The translations under genes were made by a program, and so were the position numbers. Below are positions 13,588 through 21,773 of a stretch of DNA of 35,719 nt, piece after piece; position 1 is the stretch's first letter, and every line of letters starts with the position of its first letter. The DNA comes from Alphaproteobacteria bacterium (lineage in GTDB: Bacteria; Pseudomonadota; Alphaproteobacteria; UBA7985; JAUIBT01), in contig JAUIDR010000036.1 in assembly GCA_030428565.1 (NCBI GenBank), forward strand, positions 1-35,719. Reading direction: 5' to 3'. Under the pieces are notes generated by a model. The model did not search any database and was not told where the DNA came from. It worked only from the letters and a program-made list of their open reading frames with translations.

Positions 13588-14478
13588 ATGCCAATCTCAA
13601 TCGAACTCTTTCCGCCACGAAATAGCGAAGGTGCCGCACGCCTGGATACGCTTTTGGCAGGTTTGTCCCGTTATCAGATTTCCAAGTTGAGCGTCACCGA
13701 AGGGGCCCTGGCTTCGGATGCAGCGGGCAGCATGGAGACGATTGAGCGCGCGCAAGCTTTGACCGGACTGCCGATCACGAGTCATTTGGTGTCTTGGGGC
13801 AAGAGCGAACAAGAGATCGTTTGGCAGGTAGAAAAATTGCGAACGCTCAAGGTGCGCTCAATCTTGGCGCTGCGTGGCGATAAGCGCGGTACAGAGCCGG
13901 GTGTCTTTGCGCAGGCTGACCAGCTGACCGCTTACCTTAACAAGGTCGCGCCTGAATTTGAGATCGGCATCGCGGCCTATCCCGAAGGCCACCCAGAAGA
14001 TCGCGACTTTAGGCAGACACTCGACATCTTGGCGAGCAAGGCCGACGCGGGCGCCCGCTTTGCCGTGACCCAATTTTGCTTTGACCTCGACGCTCTGGAG
14101 CGTCTTCGTCAAGGTCTAGCGGATCGCAACATTGCCATTGACCTGCACGTGGGTGTTCTGCCGATCCGTGAGCTAGCGAGCGCCAAGCGTCTGGCTCAGC
14201 AGTGCGGCGCCGATATCCCGGACTGGATCGCAACATGGATTGCGGCTTGGGAAGAAGAGACCGGCCAGACCTGGAATGACCAAGGCGCGGCAGCGCTTGC
14301 GCTCGACTGGTGCCAACAGCTCAAAACGCGCGGGTTTGATCATCTTCATCTCTATGCGCTCAATCGCGCTCAGCCGACGCTAGACCTCTTGCAGGGGCTT
14401 GATCTGGGCAAAAGACGCATCGCAACCGCCGATCGTCGCCCAAGCCGCGCAGATTTCGCCACCGCCACGACCCTTTAA
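13588..14478 (+). CDS. metF: 5,10-methylenetetrahydrofolate reductase MetF
   Basis: A 296-residue TIM-barrel flavoprotein of the MTHFR family, at normal length. The active-site Glu lies in SIELFPPRNSEGAARL at residues 3-18, as in bacterial MetF. LRGDKRG near residue 93 corresponds to the conserved LRGD of the FAD/folate site, YPEGHPE near 133 to the family YPExHPE, and FAVTQFCFD near 155 to the folate-binding Gln segment. It interconverts 5,10-methylene-THF and 5-methyl-THF in the cytoplasm, linking C1 units to methionine synthesis or to corrinoid methyl transfer. No strong Shine-Dalgarno is visible; the palindrome sits immediately upstream. The genes downstream suggest a methyl-THF/corrinoid operon, and the convergent sarcosine oxidase produces its substrate. 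Confidence 0.92.
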   Translation: MPISIELFPPRNSEGAARLDTLLAGLSRYQISKLSVTEGALASDAAGSMETIERAQALTGLPITSHLVSWGKSEQEIVWQVEKLRTLKVRSILALRGDKRGTEPGVFAQADQLTAYLNKVAPEFEIGIAAYPEGHPEDRDFRQTLDILASKADAGARFAVTQFCFDLDALERLRQGLADRNIAIDLHVGVLPIRELASAKRLAQQCGADIPDWIATWIAAWEEETGQTWNDQGAAALALDWCQQLKTRGFDHLHLYALNRAQPTLDLLQGLDLGKRRIATADRRPSRADFATATTL

Positions 14479-14523: not shown

Positions 14524-14862
14524 ATGTCAAAGCCAATCGCTTCCAACGAACAGCCGCAAACCTGGAGCCAGGTCATAGACTTGCTGCCGACCGTTAAGGT
14601 CTCCACCGAAGGCCACACTTACGATTACTGGTCGGTATCCGAGCGCAACTTGAGCCCGCGCGAAGCAACCAAGCTGGGCGTGGCCTTGGGTGAACAGACC
14701 TTGGCGGTAATCCAGCGCAACCCTGAGGCCGCAAGCTGTCTGCGCCGCATCCTGCGTGCGCTGCCCGCTGAAAGCCTGGCTGCTGAAGGCTTTTTGTGCG
14801 CGCTTGAAGATCGCGTCGCCTTCACCACCAGCACGCAAGTTAAAAACGCCTACGTCGCTTAG
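14524..14862 (+). CDS. Small conserved-looking protein of the metF locus
   Basis: A 112-residue soluble acidic-to-neutral protein with a good ribosome site (AAGGA before the ATG). It has no signal peptide or membrane segment. The stretch VSTEGHTYDYWSVSERNLSP (about residues 28-47) and the Ala/Leu-rich helical second half (CLRRILRALPAES...) look like a folded, conserved unit. In alphaproteobacteria a short protein labelled 'virulence factor' (PF13769 as I recall) often sits between metF and the methyl-THF:corrinoid methyltransferase, and this gene has the right size and position. Its biochemical function is unknown to me; the co-localisation suggests a role in the folate/corrinoid methyl branch. 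Confidence 0.75.
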   Translation: MSKPIASNEQPQTWSQVIDLLPTVKVSTEGHTYDYWSVSERNLSPREATKLGVALGEQTLAVIQRNPEAASCLRRILRALPAESLAAEGFLCALEDRVAFTTSTQVKNAYVA

Positions 14863-15071: not shown

Positions 15072-15992
15072 ATGGCGCGCACAATCCTAGCTTCGCCCAA
15101 AAAAGAAGTCATTATGGGCTTCGATCAGCCGTTTTGCATCATTGGCGAACGCTTGAACCCAACCAACCGCAAAACCTTCATGGCCGAGCTGCGCGCAGGC
15201 GATCTGTCGCGCGTTGAGCGTGACTGTATCGCGCAAGTTGAAGCTGGCGCTCATATGTTGGACGTGAACGCGGGTGTTCCGCTGGCCGACGAGCCCGCTC
15301 TGTTGGCGCAGTGTATCGAGCTGGTTCAGAACTTGTGCGATCTGCCAATCTGTATCGACTCCTCTATCATTGATGCTTTGGAAGCGGGCCTGTCGGTCTA
15401 CAAGGGTCGCGCCCTGGTGAACTCCGTCACCGGTGAAGACGAGAGCCTGGAGCGCGTCCTGCCTCTGGTCAAAAAGCACGACGCTGCCGTTGTTGCGATC
15501 TCAAACGATGAGACCGGCATCTCTGAAGACCCTGAGGTTCGCTTCGCTGTTGCCAAGAAGATCGTTGAGCGCGCAGCCGATCACGGCATTAAGGCTGAAG
15601 ACGTTGTAGTTGATCCGCTGGTCATGCCCGTGGGCGCTATGGGCACCGCCGGTCGCCAGGCTTTCGAAATCGTCTACAAGCTGCGTAAAGAGCTGGGCGT
15701 TAACACCACCTGTGGTGCCTCTAATATCTCCTTTGGTCTGCCCAACCGCCACGCGCTGAACGCGCACTTCCTGGCGATGGCATCGGCTTGTGGTATGACC
15801 TCGGCCATTATGAACCCGCTGCACGAAGAAGAAATGGCGGGCATCAAAGCTGCTGACGTTCTGAACGGCAACGACCCGGATTGCATGCGCTGGATCATGA
15901 AGTATCGTGAGCCCGTCCAGGGTGGCGGCGAAGGTGGCGAAGGCGGTTCTGGTGGCCGTCGCGGCGGTCGCCGCCGTCGTTCAGCGGCCTAA
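15072..15992 (+). CDS. Methyltetrahydrofolate:corrinoid methyltransferase with GR-rich tail
   Basis: A 306-residue pterin-binding (DHPS-like) TIM-barrel protein. Folate-site motifs are FCIIGERLNPTNRKTF (residues 21-36), AHMLDVNAG (60-68), ICIDSS near 95, VNSVTGED near 120, and AISNDETGIS near 140. TTCGASNISFGLPNRHALN near 215 is the family GASNxSFGLP signature. Such enzymes (MtgA/MtvA/AcsE-like) move a methyl group between a corrinoid protein and THF. The last 23 residues (bases 15921-15989) form a Gly/Glu linker plus GGRRGGRRRRSAA, not part of the barrel. The ATG at 15072 is preferred; the extension back to 14895 is unlike the family. No corrinoid protein gene is in the window. Confidence 0.88.
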   Translation: MARTILASPKKEVIMGFDQPFCIIGERLNPTNRKTFMAELRAGDLSRVERDCIAQVEAGAHMLDVNAGVPLADEPALLAQCIELVQNLCDLPICIDSSIIDALEAGLSVYKGRALVNSVTGEDESLERVLPLVKKHDAAVVAISNDETGISEDPEVRFAVAKKIVERAADHGIKAEDVVVDPLVMPVGAMGTAGRQAFEIVYKLRKELGVNTTCGASNISFGLPNRHALNAHFLAMASACGMTSAIMNPLHEEEMAGIKAADVLNGNDPDCMRWIMKYREPVQGGGEGGEGGSGGRRGGRRRRSAA

Positions 15993-16023
15993 GGCCTTGA
16001 ACGGCGACACTTAGCGCGAATTT

Positions 16024-16068
16024 AAGCGGCTCTGGGCTGACAAACGTCAGCTCACGGGCCGCTTTGTT
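16024..16068 (+). terminator. Intercistronic hairpin between the methyltransferase and activator genes
   Basis: A nested hairpin has outer arms AAGCGGC (16024-16030) and GCCGCTT (16058-16064) and inner arms GCTGAC (16036-16041) and GTCAGC (16046-16051) around AAAC. It is followed by TTGTTGTTT. It looks like a rho-independent terminator or attenuator placed only 19 bp before the activator ATG, and would reduce activator expression relative to the upstream genes. Confidence 0.65.
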
Positions 16069-16082
16069 GTTTGGGGGAAGAC

Positions 16083-18119
16083 ATGTCAAACGCAGCAAAA
16101 TCTGATGAGGCTCTAGTTCTTTTCATGCCCACCGGCAAGCGGGGGCGCTTTCCAAAGGGCACCAAGGTGTTGGATGCGGCGCGCGAGCTTGGCGTCGATA
16201 TCGACAGCCTTTGCGGTGGTCGCGGCATGTGCGGACGCTGCCAAGTTGAACCGCAATTTGGCGAGTTCGCTAAGCACGGCATTCACTCGATGCCCGAGCA
16301 CGTATCAGCCCCTGGGGCGACCGAGACCCGCTATGCTGAAAAGCGCGGTATGGCTCCGGGCCGTCGCCAGTCGTGCCAGTGTAGCCTACAGGGCGATCTT
16401 TTGATCGACGTACCGCCCGAGAGCCAGGTTCACCAACAGATCATCCGCAAGGCCCCCGATCAACGCGACATGCCGTTGGACCCAGCGCTTAGGCTGTATC
16501 GCGTGCAGGTGCGCGAGCCAGACATGCACGACCCCACCGGTGATTTGCAGCGCGTTAAAGAGGCGCTGCGCGAACAGCACGGCCTGGGCAAGCTGCGCGC
16601 GGATTTGCATGTGCTCCAGAGCCTGCAACCGGTGCTGCGCAAGGGGCAGTGGCAAGTCACGGTGGCGGTCTATGACGGCCAATTCATCACCGGCGTTTGG
16701 CCAGGCGAAAAGGCCGAGGTTTACGGGCTCGCGGTCGATGTGGGCTCAACGACCATCGCGGCCCATCTGTGCAATTTGGCCACGGGCAAGGTCGTGGCCT
16801 CTACGGGTCTCATGAACCCGCAAATTCGCTATGGCGAAGACCTCATGTCTCGCGTCTCCTATTCCATGATGAATAAGGGCGGCGCCGATACCATGCGCGA
16901 TGCTATTTGGGACGCGCTCAACGGTCTGTTGCAAGCGGCGTGTAACGAAGCCAACGTGCCCGCTGAACAGGTGATGGACATCGTGTTGGTCGGCAACCCC
17001 GTCATGCACCACCTGTTCTTGGGTATTGATCCGGTCGAGCTTGGCGGCGCGCCTTTTGCGCTTGCGAGCGACGAGGGCTTGTTGCTGCGCGCTTCTGAGA
17101 TCAAGATTTTGGCCCACCCTGGGGCGCGGCTCTATGTGTTGCCCTGTATCGCGGGGCATGTGGGCGCAGACTCGGCGGCGGTTGCCTTGGCCGAACGTCC
17201 TGACCTGCAAGATGAGCTGACCTTCGTTGTTGACGTTGGTACGAACGCCGAAATGCTGTTGGGTACAAAGGAGAAGGTTCTGGCGGCTTCCAGCCCCACG
17301 GGCCCTGCCTTCGAAGGTGCGCAGATTTCGTCAGGCCAGCGCGCCGCTGCGGGGGCAATCGAGCGTATCCGCATCGACAAAGACACGCTGGAGCCGCGCT
17401 ATCGCGTCATCGGCGTAGAGCCTTGGTCGGACGAGTCGGGCTTTGACGAGGCCGTTGCCAAGACCGGTATCACCGGAATTTGCGGCTCGGGCGTCATTGA
17501 AGCGGTCGCCGAGATGTATCTGGCGGGCGTGATCAACGAGGATGGCCTCTTGCAAGGCGAGCTGGCCGAGCGCAGCCCACGCGTCCTCGCCGATGGCCGG
17601 ACCTTTTCCTACATGGTTCGCGATGGGGAAAACCCAATCAAAATCACTCAGAACGATGTGCGCGCCATTCAGCTTGCCAAGGCGGCGCTCTATGCGGGCT
17701 ATCGTTTGCTGATGGATCGCTATGGCGCTGAAGAGGTCGAACGCGTGGTGTTGGCAGGGGCCTTCGGTTCGCACATCGATACCAAATACGCCATGGTGTT
17801 GGGCATGATCCCCGACTGTAGCCTGGATAAGGTCGTGTCAGCCGGCAACGCCGCGGGGACGGGCGCGCGCTTGGCGTTGGTCAATCAGGCGGCGCGTGGC
17901 GACGTTCAGGATTTGGTCAATCGCATCGAAAAGGTCGAGACGGCACTGGAGCCCAAGTTCCAAGAACATTTTGTGGGTGCCATGGCCATTCCGCATAAAG
18001 TCGATGCTTATCCCAAGCTGCGCGGTCAGATCGAAATGCCGGCTTTGGTCGGTAACGTCCCTGGCGTGGGTGATGATGGCGAGGGCGGTGGCCGTCGTCG
18101 TCGTCGGCGCTCTCGCTAG
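16083..18119 (+). CDS. 2Fe-2S / ASKHA-domain reductive activator of corrinoid proteins (RACo/RamA-like, DUF4445)
   Basis: A 678-residue protein. The N-terminal ferredoxin-like domain carries CGGRGMCGRC (Cys44, Cys50, Cys53) and a fourth ligand in SCQC (residues 98-100). A middle region follows, then an ASKHA ATPase fold with phosphate motifs LAVDVGSTTIAAHL (about 217-230) and VVDVGTNAEMLLG, the acid-base region PAFEGAQISSGQRAAAGA, ITGICGSGVIEAVAE, and GNAAGTGARLAL. RACo proteins use ATP to reduce inactive Co(II) corrinoid proteins back to Co(I). The chosen ATG follows GGGGGAAG; an upstream in-frame TTG at 16071 is within that site. The last 16 residues (18069-18116) are GDDGEGGG plus RRRRRRSR, echoing the tail on the preceding methyltransferase. 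Both activities imply a partner corrinoid protein encoded elsewhere. Confidence 0.9.
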   Translation: MSNAAKSDEALVLFMPTGKRGRFPKGTKVLDAARELGVDIDSLCGGRGMCGRCQVEPQFGEFAKHGIHSMPEHVSAPGATETRYAEKRGMAPGRRQSCQCSLQGDLLIDVPPESQVHQQIIRKAPDQRDMPLDPALRLYRVQVREPDMHDPTGDLQRVKEALREQHGLGKLRADLHVLQSLQPVLRKGQWQVTVAVYDGQFITGVWPGEKAEVYGLAVDVGSTTIAAHLCNLATGKVVASTGLMNPQIRYGEDLMSRVSYSMMNKGGADTMRDAIWDALNGLLQAACNEANVPAEQVMDIVLVGNPVMHHLFLGIDPVELGGAPFALASDEGLLLRASEIKILAHPGARLYVLPCIAGHVGADSAAVALAERPDLQDELTFVVDVGTNAEMLLGTKEKVLAASSPTGPAFEGAQISSGQRAAAGAIERIRIDKDTLEPRYRVIGVEPWSDESGFDEAVAKTGITGICGSGVIEAVAEMYLAGVINEDGLLQGELAERSPRVLADGRTFSYMVRDGENPIKITQNDVRAIQLAKAALYAGYRLLMDRYGAEEVERVVLAGAFGSHIDTKYAMVLGMIPDCSLDKVVSAGNAAGTGARLALVNQAARGDVQDLVNRIEKVETALEPKFQEHFVGAMAIPHKVDAYPKLRGQIEMPALVGNVPGVGDDGEGGGRRRRRRSR

Positions 18120-18235: not shown

Positions 18236-18802
18236 TCAATGATACTCAGCGGCGCCGTGGTCCAAATAGTCGACCAGCGCTTGTGCGAATGACGTGGTGA
18301 CGTAAAGGTCCGTCGTGTCATCATCAACAGCCATCAGCGTAACGGCGAGCTGTTCGACCAGTGTCATGGCCACATCGCCCGGCTGAAAGTGCAAAAAGTC
18401 CAACGAACATGACTTGTTCAGAATATCAAAGCGGCGTTCGCCGGTCAGGCGCAGGCAACAGCGGGCATGGCTCAAGTCCAGCATGACCGCTTCGTCCGGT
18501 GAGACCAGCGGGGCCAGGCGCTCAGCCAGTTCTTCTTGCGTGAGTGTCTTTGATGTCAGCCACCATTGATCCGGACCGGACCAGATCAAGGCCATATCAT
18601 TCGCTGCTAGCGATTTGCCAACTTGTGGCGTTTGGCCGTCGAACAGCCCTGCCAATTTTTCGCCAAGCGCATCGCTACAGCCCTTGAAGGCAGCGACTTG
18701 CCACAAGCTTGCAATCGGCATTTCATCCAAAGCAAATCCGGGGCACGAGGGCAGCGGCGCGGTCAACAAGCCCGCATCGGTAAGACGGATTGGCTTATCC
18801 AT
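18236..18802 (-). CDS. soxG: Sarcosine oxidase subunit gamma
   Basis: A 188-residue protein of the SoxG family, which adopts a GcvT-like fold. Family-like stretches are LWQVAAFKG near residue 33, GPDQWWLTS near 76, VMLDLSHARCCLRLTGERRF (about 106-125), LDFLHFQPGDVAMT near 134, and the C-terminal DLYVTTSFAQALVDYL. It is the last gene of soxBDAG, its ATG overlapping the soxA stop by 8 bp. In the heterotetramer the gamma subunit helps hold the complex and contacts the THF-binding part of alpha. A close relative is the N-methylglutamate dehydrogenase set, but the gene order matches sarcosine oxidase. Confidence 0.9.
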   Translation of the reverse strand: MDKPIRLTDAGLLTAPLPSCPGFALDEMPIASLWQVAAFKGCSDALGEKLAGLFDGQTPQVGKSLAANDMALIWSGPDQWWLTSKTLTQEELAERLAPLVSPDEAVMLDLSHARCCLRLTGERRFDILNKSCSLDFLHFQPGDVAMTLVEQLAVTLMAVDDDTTDLYVTTSFAQALVDYLDHGAAEYH

Positions 18803-21773
18803 ATTGGCGCTCTCCTTGCGGGTCGATCATATGCGGTGAGACAATGTTTACGGGCAGGTGTTCGTCATCGACGGGCGAGGCGGCGAACAGGGTCTGTCCA
18901 ATCCGCTCGCTGCCCTTGTCAATAAAGCCAAGCGCGACGAAACAGTCGTGTTCGACACTAAAGTGAGCCGAGGATATCCAACCCAAGGATTTGGTCATGC
19001 TGCCGAAGCCGCCGACCTGGCCTTCTTCGGTCAGTTGTGAGCCAGCGATCACATTAGAGCGACCATCGGCGGGCATAATGCCAACCAGGGTCGGGCGATC
19101 GGCCTTGTTGAGACCTTCGCGCAGCAGACCCAGACGGCCGATGAAGTCTTTCTTCTTTGCCACCATTTTGCCGAGACCCATATCGGCGGGCGTGGTGCGA
19201 CCGTCCAGCTCGCCACCAGCAACGTGACCCTTTTCGATACGCAAGGCACCCAGCGCCTCGGTGCCGTAGGGCATAAGGCCAAAGTCCTTGCCTGTCTCGC
19301 TCAGCGCTTGCCAGACCTGCGGGCCAAAGCGCGCGGGGGTATGCACCTCATAGGCCAGCTCGCCCGAGAAGGAGATGCGCAGCACGCGAACGGGCAAGCC
19401 ATTCAGCTCTGTATCGACAAATCCCATGAAGGGCAGGCCCTCGTTCGACATGTCAATGTGGGGCAGGGCGGCTTGCAACATATCGCGAGAGCGCGGCCCG
19501 GCGACTGCCATGCCGGCCCACTGATCTGTAATGCTGGCGACCCGGACCTTCAGCTCAGGCCAAACGACATCCAAGTGGTATTCCATGTGCGCCAACACAG
19601 CCGCAGCATTGGCCGTGGTGGTGGTCATGTAATAATGGTTGTCGGCGAGACGCGCCACGGTGCCGTCGTCGAATACAATGCCATCGTCTCGCAGCATGAG
19701 GCCATAGCGCACTTTGCCGATAGCCAGCGTCTTCATACCATTGCAGTAGAGCCGCTGAATGAACTCTTGTGCGTCGGGGCCTTGCACGTCGATCTTGCCA
19801 AGCGTCGAGACATCGCACATGGCGACGGCCTGGCGCACTTGGCGAGCTTCCCGTTTGATCGACGCCCACATGTCTTCGTCGTCGCGCGTGTACCACTCGG
19901 CGCGCATCCACATACCAGCCTCGACGAAGGATGCCCCGGCGTCCTGGTGCAGATCGTGCATAGGCGTGCGGCGGATCGGTGCGAAGGATGCGCCAACGTG
20001 CGGGCCGCCAAAGGCCCCGAGCGTCAGCGGCGTATAGGGCGGGCGGAAGGTTGTCGTGCCGACTTCTGCGATCGCGCGACCTTGTGCTTGTGCCAGCAAG
20101 GCGTGACCGTTGATGTTGGCCGTCTTGCCCTGATCGGTGCCCATGCCGAGCGTGGTGTAGCGCTTTAGGTGCTCGACCGAACGGTAGCCCTCTTGATTGG
20201 CCATAACGACATCGCTGGAGCCTGCATCGTTCTGGAAATCAACGAAAGCCTTCCCCTTGACCTTTCGCGGCTTGGGATTGCTCCATAGCGGCATGATTGG
20301 GCTGGTCTCAATGCTGGCGATGTCCAGCGTTGGCGCATGCCCGGCACTGACGCTGTGTCCCAAATCCTGTGCCGCCGTGATGCCTTGTTGCCAGCCGGAT
20401 GCGAGTGCTTCGTGTGTAGCAAACAGGCCCGCCGCCGCGCCGACCGCGACACCTTCTTGCAGGCGCTTGCCCGGCACAAAGGCTTGCAAATCATCGCGCC
20501 ATTCGGCTTTGCCGCCTGTATGGCTGTGGAGATGGATCGAGGGCGACCATCCGCCCGAGCTGAGAACACCATCGCAGTTGATCAACCGGGAAGACTTGCC
20601 ATCCAGCCCGCCGATCTCGGCAGCGCTGACGCCGTTGCTGCCACCTTTGGCGGACAGAACGGTTTGCCCCAAGGACAGCTCGACGTTGCTGCCTTTCAAG
20701 CTGTCCTGCAGGGCCTCGCTGACTTGGTCGCGCGCCTCCAGCAGATGCACCTGGGCACCGGCGTCGGCCAATAGGCGCGCCGAGCTGTAGCCGTCGTCAT
20801 TGTTGGTCGCCAGGACCAGAGACTTGCCGACTAAGACACCGAACTTGCCCGCAAAGGCCGCGCCTGCATGAGCTAGCATGACGCCCGGGCGGTCATTGTT
20901 GGCAAAAACCAGCGGGCGCTCGATGGCACCGGTCGCGTAGATAACCCGCTTGGCGCGGATGTGCCAGGCGCGCGCGCGCGGCTGGTGTGCTGATAGCGGC
21001 TTGCCGGGATCGCCTTCGACCTGAACGCAGGCCACCATGTTGTCGTCGTAGTGGCCCCAAGCCGTGGTCCGGCTCATGAGGCGAACCTTGGGGTAGTCAG
21101 CCAGCTCTGCCAAGGCTTCGTGCAGCCACTCACGCTGAGCTGCTTCGCGCCAAAGTCCCTGACCGCCCAGCTTGTCATGCTCATCGACCAGGGTCACGCT
21201 GGCGCCAGAACGTGCGGCTGCCAAAGCGGCGGCAACCCCCGACAGGCCCGAGCCAACGACAAGCACATCGCAATGGGTAAAGTGGTGCTGGTAGTCGTCT
21301 TCATTGGCGAGCTCGTTGGGGCGCCCAAGGCCTGCCGCGCGGCGAATGAAATATTCGGGCAGCAGCCAGAAATTGGCCGATCCCAGAAAGATTTTGTAAT
21401 AGAAACCGGCAGGTAAGAAGGCGCTCAACAAGCTGTTGACCGCCATGATGTCGGTCTTCAGCGACGGCCACGCGTTCTGCGACTGTGCGTCCAGCCCCTC
21501 ATAGAGGTCGATCATGGTGGCGCGCAGGTTACTTTCCTGCTCTTGGCCTCTGCCGACGGTCATCAGGGCGTTGGGCTCTTCGCTGCCGCTGCCGTAGACA
21601 CCGCGCGGGCGGTGATACTTGAACGAACGCCCCATAAGCTGCACGCCGTTGGCCAACAAAGCCGAGGCCAGGGTGTCGCCTTGGAAACCCTGGTAAGCCT
21701 TGCCATCAAAGCGGAAATTGAGCGGCGTGTTGCGGTCGATCAGGCCGCCTTGGTCCAAACGAAAAGAAGTCAT
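18795..21773 (-). CDS. soxA: Sarcosine oxidase subunit alpha
   Basis: A 992-residue protein, the normal size for heterotetrameric sarcosine oxidase alpha. The N-terminal ferredoxin-like domain contains GRSFKYHRPRGVYG (about 48-61). An NAD-binding Rossmann unit begins at CDVLVVGSGLSGVAAALAAA (168-187), with YATGAIERPLVFANNDRPGV near 285-310. The C-terminal half (from about 590) is a GcvT-like aminomethyltransferase domain with DVSTLGKIDVQGPDA and GELAYEVHTP. That domain binds THF and captures the formaldehyde equivalent as 5,10-methylene-THF. The start codon directly follows the soxD stop (TAAATG). The enzyme turns sarcosine into glycine with H2O2 production, on the cytoplasmic side. Confidence 0.95.
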   Translation of the reverse strand: MTSFRLDQGGLIDRNTPLNFRFDGKAYQGFQGDTLASALLANGVQLMGRSFKYHRPRGVYGSGSEEPNALMTVGRGQEQESNLRATMIDLYEGLDAQSQNAWPSLKTDIMAVNSLLSAFLPAGFYYKIFLGSANFWLLPEYFIRRAAGLGRPNELANEDDYQHHFTHCDVLVVGSGLSGVAAALAAARSGASVTLVDEHDKLGGQGLWREAAQREWLHEALAELADYPKVRLMSRTTAWGHYDDNMVACVQVEGDPGKPLSAHQPRARAWHIRAKRVIYATGAIERPLVFANNDRPGVMLAHAGAAFAGKFGVLVGKSLVLATNNDDGYSSARLLADAGAQVHLLEARDQVSEALQDSLKGSNVELSLGQTVLSAKGGSNGVSAAEIGGLDGKSSRLINCDGVLSSGGWSPSIHLHSHTGGKAEWRDDLQAFVPGKRLQEGVAVGAAAGLFATHEALASGWQQGITAAQDLGHSVSAGHAPTLDIASIETSPIMPLWSNPKPRKVKGKAFVDFQNDAGSSDVVMANQEGYRSVEHLKRYTTLGMGTDQGKTANINGHALLAQAQGRAIAEVGTTTFRPPYTPLTLGAFGGPHVGASFAPIRRTPMHDLHQDAGASFVEAGMWMRAEWYTRDDEDMWASIKREARQVRQAVAMCDVSTLGKIDVQGPDAQEFIQRLYCNGMKTLAIGKVRYGLMLRDDGIVFDDGTVARLADNHYYMTTTTANAAAVLAHMEYHLDVVWPELKVRVASITDQWAGMAVAGPRSRDMLQAALPHIDMSNEGLPFMGFVDTELNGLPVRVLRISFSGELAYEVHTPARFGPQVWQALSETGKDFGLMPYGTEALGALRIEKGHVAGGELDGRTTPADMGLGKMVAKKKDFIGRLGLLREGLNKADRPTLVGIMPADGRSNVIAGSQLTEEGQVGGFGSMTKSLGWISSAHFSVEHDCFVALGFIDKGSERIGQTLFAASPVDDEHLPVNIVSPHMIDPQGERQYG

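Follow-up and report, generated by a model that had tools for sequence, protein, structure and literature searches.

Why should two neighbouring genes of corrinoid metabolism encode proteins that both finish in a flexible, glycine-rich linker followed by a block of arginines? The question was raised by a stretch of 35,719 nucleotides of an alphaproteobacterial genome (hereafter, the window), in which a first-pass annotation had pointed out such tails on a methyl-tetrahydrofolate (methyl-THF):corrinoid methyltransferase and on the product of the next gene, a corrinoid activator, and had proposed that they share a common docking surface. The features concerned are listed below.

13588..14478, + strand: methylenetetrahydrofolate reductase (MTHFR), encoded in this gene cluster; no arm (PF02219)
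15072..15992, + strand: MtgD-like methyl-THF:corrinoid methyltransferase, pterin-binding (PF00809; Pfam and NCBIfam models; PDB homologue AcsE)
15921..15989, + strand: putative MtgD arm, a disordered Gly/Glu linker and then an Arg-rich C-terminal part (sequence, AlphaFold2, conservation)
16083..18119, + strand: RamA/RACo-like reductive corrinoid activator (PF17650, PF17651, PF14574; PDB RACo 3zyy)
18069..18116, + strand: putative arm of the RamA-like protein, an acidic Gly linker and then an Arg-rich C-terminal part (sequence, conservation in homologues)

The MtgD-like protein has 306 residues, the last 23 of which (residues 284-306) form the tail GGGEGGEGGSGGRRGGRRRRSAA. The family model (Pfam/NCBIfam) of the folded part stops at residue 282, before the tail, and the arm is predicted to be disordered: AlphaFold2 gave pLDDT values below 50 over residues 284-299 and 303-306, and no secondary structure. 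The RamA-like protein, 678 residues long, consists of an N-terminal ferredoxin-like domain, a RACo linker, and the middle and C-terminal ASKHA domains; its tail GDDGEGGGRRRRRRSR takes up the last 16 residues (663-678), downstream of the RACo_C_ter match, which extends to residue 646 (Pfam). The first-pass annotation had read both tail sequences exactly, and its statement that they follow complete folded domains is borne out by these model ends. PF17650, PF17651 and PF14574 all exceed the Pfam cut-offs in the RamA-like protein. Its scores were below the curated NCBIfam cut-offs for AcsV (383 bits vs 800) and for the methylamine RamA (121 bits vs 500), hence it falls into a related but separate group among the RACo/RamA activators.

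Judged by their sequences, the two genes are the MtgD and the RamA-like activator of the split methionine synthase/glycine-betaine demethylase system, MtgBCDE. According to PMC5764234, the methionine synthase of Phaeobacter inhibens consists of three separate proteins, a homocysteine module, a B12 protein and the pterin protein PGA1_c16040, and it is reactivated by the RamA-like DUF4445 protein PGA1_c15200 together with a DUF1638 protein. In Ruegeria pomeroyi, MtgC, MtgD, MtgE and the MTTB-family protein MtgB carry out both methionine synthesis and glycine-betaine demethylation, and in the ocean this split system is both abundant and strongly expressed (PMC12478193). PGA1_c16040 and R. pomeroyi SPO1863 are the same type of protein as MtgD of the window, and in these two organisms methionine synthesis or the use of betaine requires the genes together (PMC5764234; PMC12478193).

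The same set of genes was found in the genome of the window. MtgD is a stand-alone pterin protein and not a module of MetH, the sole other PF00809 match of the genome being FolP-like. The single MtgC (PF02607 and PF02310, 233 amino acids) adjoins the gene of the DUF1638 protein (G000:C35), the RamA-like (DUF4445) activator is encoded at 16083-18119 of the window, and separate genes for MtgE and an MTTB-family protein are divergent neighbours (G000:C58). A profile search of this genome yielded no second B12-cap (PF02607) protein, and thus no MetH was found in it. The MTHFR, MtgD and RamA genes adjoin one another in Sinorhizobium meliloti, Azoarcus and Paracoccus. The MtgBCDE systems of P. inhibens and R. 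pomeroyi comprise the same families, inferred reactions, and MTHFR-MtgD-RamA and MtgC-DUF1638 neighbourhoods as the one described here (PMC5764234; PMC12478193). The enzymes and the pathway are already known, and by analogy with these homologues the system of this genome would act as a methionine synthase or a glycine-betaine demethylase.

The tails were followed in 80 genome contigs, picked by MtgD similarity, and by genome searches within the order, class and phylum; non-identical complete proteins were counted, some of them from closely related loci, so that the counts are not independent events. A tail was scored when at least five arginines were present within the last 30 residues, the thresholds for 'Arg-rich' having been set once the first tails were known. 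By this measure, the tail was present in 124 of the 124 distinct MtgD proteins (median of 8 Arg) and in 99 of the 100 distinct RamA-like proteins; in the lone exception, the stretch RRRGLRRRG lies further upstream. Another 19 RamA-like proteins, outside this hundred, all carried the tail (19/19), as did both proteins in every stretch with both genes complete (87/87). The taxa sampled comprise alpha-, beta- and gammaproteobacteria and bins labelled Acidimicrobiia and Chloroflexi. Residues, length and order within the tail vary, and the pattern noticed at the outset, a flexible linker plus an arginine block on both proteins, is kept across homologues. The charges of the MtgD and RamA tails are correlated (rho 0.43, p 3e-5), with genome relatedness still contained in these data. 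The GC content of the genomes ranges from 33 to 72% and its correlation with the number of arginines is only r 0.17-0.19; GC hardly predicts arginine number, which argues against composition drift as the cause. The MtgD tail is kept in genomes of 33-44% GC (for example, SRGARAGRQRARRRG). Accordingly, the tails are neither scattered at random among homologues, nor limited to one of the two proteins, nor an unconserved repeat expansion, the three outcomes that the first-pass annotation had named as fatal to its proposal.

The arm is not confined to the two proteins in which the first-pass annotation had correctly seen it: MtgE and the MTTB family, which had been missed, carry it as well. An Arg-rich C-terminal tail was present in 19/19 complete MtgE proteins, in the genome of the window as GGKEAAGGRRRGRRRG. 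In the MTTB family, the arm is N-terminal and was found in 69/69 proteins with at least four arginines (68/69 with at least five; median 8). This armed set reaches down to approximately 25% identity and includes eight proteins from the genome of the window. Named MTTB proteins with the arm come from P. inhibens, Ruegeria, Cereibacter sphaeroides 2.4.1, Azoarcus, Aminobacter and Leisingera; they were located with a probe hand-assembled from family sequences, which was used solely to find named records and whose identity values mean little. In the solved MTTB-family protein 4yyc, the arm lies inside the construct, and the sequence there matches the S. meliloti protein.

Conserved neighbour families and annotated neighbouring genes served as the background for Arg-rich ends. 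Within the same loci, no arm was observed in MtgC (0/25), in MTHFR or at the C-termini of the MTTB proteins, and in the DUF1638 cluster one of 29 proteins was flagged, apparently because of a misread frame, the others having no arm. The homocysteine modules of MetH and other PF02574 paralogues from the same genomes, unlike MtgE, have ends without the arm, and so does FolP, the other PF00809 protein in the genome of the window. None of six distant RACo-like proteins from the same phylum had it either. A simple rule applied to 50 annotated genes from the S. meliloti pSymB, Azoarcus and Paracoccus regions flagged an Arg-rich disordered end in seven, and all seven encode MTTB, MtgD or RamA-like proteins. 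Since practically all homologues have the tails and the neighbour families do not, chance is excluded. The arm is restricted to clients of MtgC, and what the four arm-bearing families have in common is that each must act on this protein.

An acidic corrinoid protein, which was to be sought in the same genomes, was indeed found: it is MtgC. All of the 73 homologues are acidic (pI 4.16-4.75, median net charge -23), and the first 25 residues, a conserved N-terminal stretch, have a median charge of -10. About 14 of the N-terminal residues fall outside the NCBIfam models of anaerobic MtgC. The core, with a net charge of -19 vs -11 to -20 in solved corrinoid homologues, is not unusually acidic. MtgC is a hub with many clients: the genome of the window has one PF02607 protein and eight MTTB matches, several relatives have a single PF02607 protein and 6-16 MTTB proteins, and the arrangement of one MtgC with 6-16 MTTB enzymes holds for many genomes. 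MTTB genes were present in 32/32 sampled genomes with the Mtg-type RamA vs 0/15 without it. Genomes with one B12-cap protein and 11-16 MTTB enzymes include G002, G037 and G226; for most of the MTTB enzymes in genomes with such copy numbers, we know of no substrate.

From these results, a hypothesis regarding the role of the arms may be put forward: they would constitute a shared set of disordered, Arg-rich docking arms, present on each type of enzyme that has to act on MtgC. We assign this reading, which is drawn from sequence comparison, a probability of roughly 0.6. The arm, placed at the N-terminus of the MTTB methyltransferases and at the C-terminus of MtgD, MtgE and the RamA-like activator, would extend away from the folded enzyme on its Gly-rich linker, and its arginines would touch the acidic MtgC in weak, fast and non-stereospecific contacts, probably at the conserved acidic N-terminal stretch DEDEIILAELNDEELVQQMHDDLYEGL and the first helix. 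Because such contacts are weak and fast, each client would be held near the hub and the others would not be blocked. Clients could then swap while MtgC cycles through methylation, demethylation and reductive reactivation, charge taking the place of the covalent linkers of one-chain MetH. Of the partners suggested by the first-pass annotation, an acidic corrinoid protein is the best supported, the arm being found on all four enzyme types that contact MtgC and MtgC being acidic and itself armless; the number of arginines in the MtgD tail, however, does not correlate with the charge of MtgC (rho -0.22, p 0.18), both of which vary little. A broader form of the hypothesis is an electrostatic 'arm code': irrespective of fold or of the terminus concerned, enzymes of four families would reach one acidic hub once they had acquired a disordered Arg-rich arm. 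A single MtgC might then serve up to about sixteen methyltransferases acting on different substrates, together with methionine synthesis and reactivation, within one cell; we regard the chances for and against this form as evenly balanced.

The arms lack a fixed motif, and their partner might therefore be any polyanion. In the main rival explanation, they would attach to a polyanionic scaffold, be it RNA, polyphosphate or nucleic acid in general, on which the enzymes cluster or condense, contact with MtgC being indirect. The arms are RGG/RG-like and conserve arginine content without a conserved sequence, as is usual for disordered regions that bind RNA or polyanions. We nevertheless consider this explanation rather unlikely, because MtgC, an obligatory member of any such cluster, is acidic and without a basic arm, and because MtgC clients alone carry the arm, which the remaining one-carbon enzymes of these loci lack. 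Binding to anionic lipids, of which Arg-rich arms are capable, would tether the enzymes to phospholipids of the membrane, for instance close to betaine transporters, the genes of which are indeed found near some of the clusters; yet hydrophobic and amphipathic residues are almost absent from the arms, and MtgE carries one although methionine synthesis needs no membrane, which makes a membrane anchor very improbable.

Another explanation dispenses with a partner altogether and treats the arms as a generic by-product, codon repeats having expanded at the chain ends neutrally or under the influence of GC, or else as mere solubility tags. Low complexity, variable length and order, and the GC-rich codons of Gly and Arg would all suit it. 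It is improbable nonetheless, given that none of the 124 MtgD proteins, low-GC genomes included, has lost the tail, that the correlation with GC is weak, that neighbours and paralogues have no arm, and that four families bear it, at both chain ends and always as MtgC clients. The arm of MtgD, a folate-using enzyme like others of its family, carries a charge opposite to that of the polyglutamate tail of methyl-THF and might bind it. The same type of arm on MtgE, MTTB and RamA-like proteins, none of which uses folate, makes this extremely improbable as its role.

Docking of clients on MtgC by such arms would differ from the arrangements in known relatives. One-chain MetH has homologous homocysteine, pterin and B12 modules joined by covalent linkers. 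The anaerobic AcsE/CFeSP/RACo system and Desulfitobacterium MtgB (PDB 2qne, 9yce) share homologous folds and chemistry, but their solved chains have no Arg arm: those of AcsE and RACo stop where the tail would start, and that of Desulfitobacterium hafniense MtgB starts at the point where an arm would finish. In Methanosarcina, the corrinoid protein is likewise docked on a TIM-barrel methyltransferase in MtaB-MtaC and MttB-MttC, and specificity comes from an extra folded N-terminal domain of MtaC (MtaBC) or from neighbouring subunits (MttBC), not from disordered arms of the clients (PMC9842639). The words 'arginine' and 'tail' are absent from the main texts of PMC12478193 and PMC12366255, and the passages of PMC5764234 that were consulted contain no mention of a terminal arm. 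No description of Arg-rich tails on corrinoid enzymes was found in the searchable literature, from which subscription journals are mostly excluded. This suggests that a shared disordered-arm docking scheme on this known split enzyme is apparently undescribed. If the scheme is correct, a cut-up methionine synthase could pass a methyl group between partners that need no tight binding, and the sharing of one B12 protein by many demethylases is explained. The Arg arm would then be a sequence marker by which an armed MTTB or ASKHA protein is assignable to the MtgC hub, useful for the many MTTB paralogues without an assigned substrate.

Several minor observations concern the loci themselves. TAG codons were flagged in two genomes, and inspection of the open frames revealed no internal stop. 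The small protein encoded at 14524-14862 (+), adjoining MTHFR, gave no match in Pfam or NCBIfam; its position matches that of a gene annotated 'virulence factor' in other genomes. The genes at 18236-21773 (-), convergent with the RamA-like gene, look from their reading frames alone like the gamma and alpha subunits of a sarcosine-oxidase-type enzyme, which would suit a betaine-degradation context for MtgD and RamA. In S. meliloti, a small hypothetical protein encoded between MtgD and the RamA-like gene ends in the basic stretch AVRPYAKRVRANARRLAK (L281:9966-10304). In one alphaproteobacterial family (f21; L131, L132, L133), the open frame of MtgD is 359-398 amino acids long and contains the insertion DDEAFCAMFGLGSTKPKAGKEMEAIRAANFL before the C-terminal helix, with the Arg arm still at the end.
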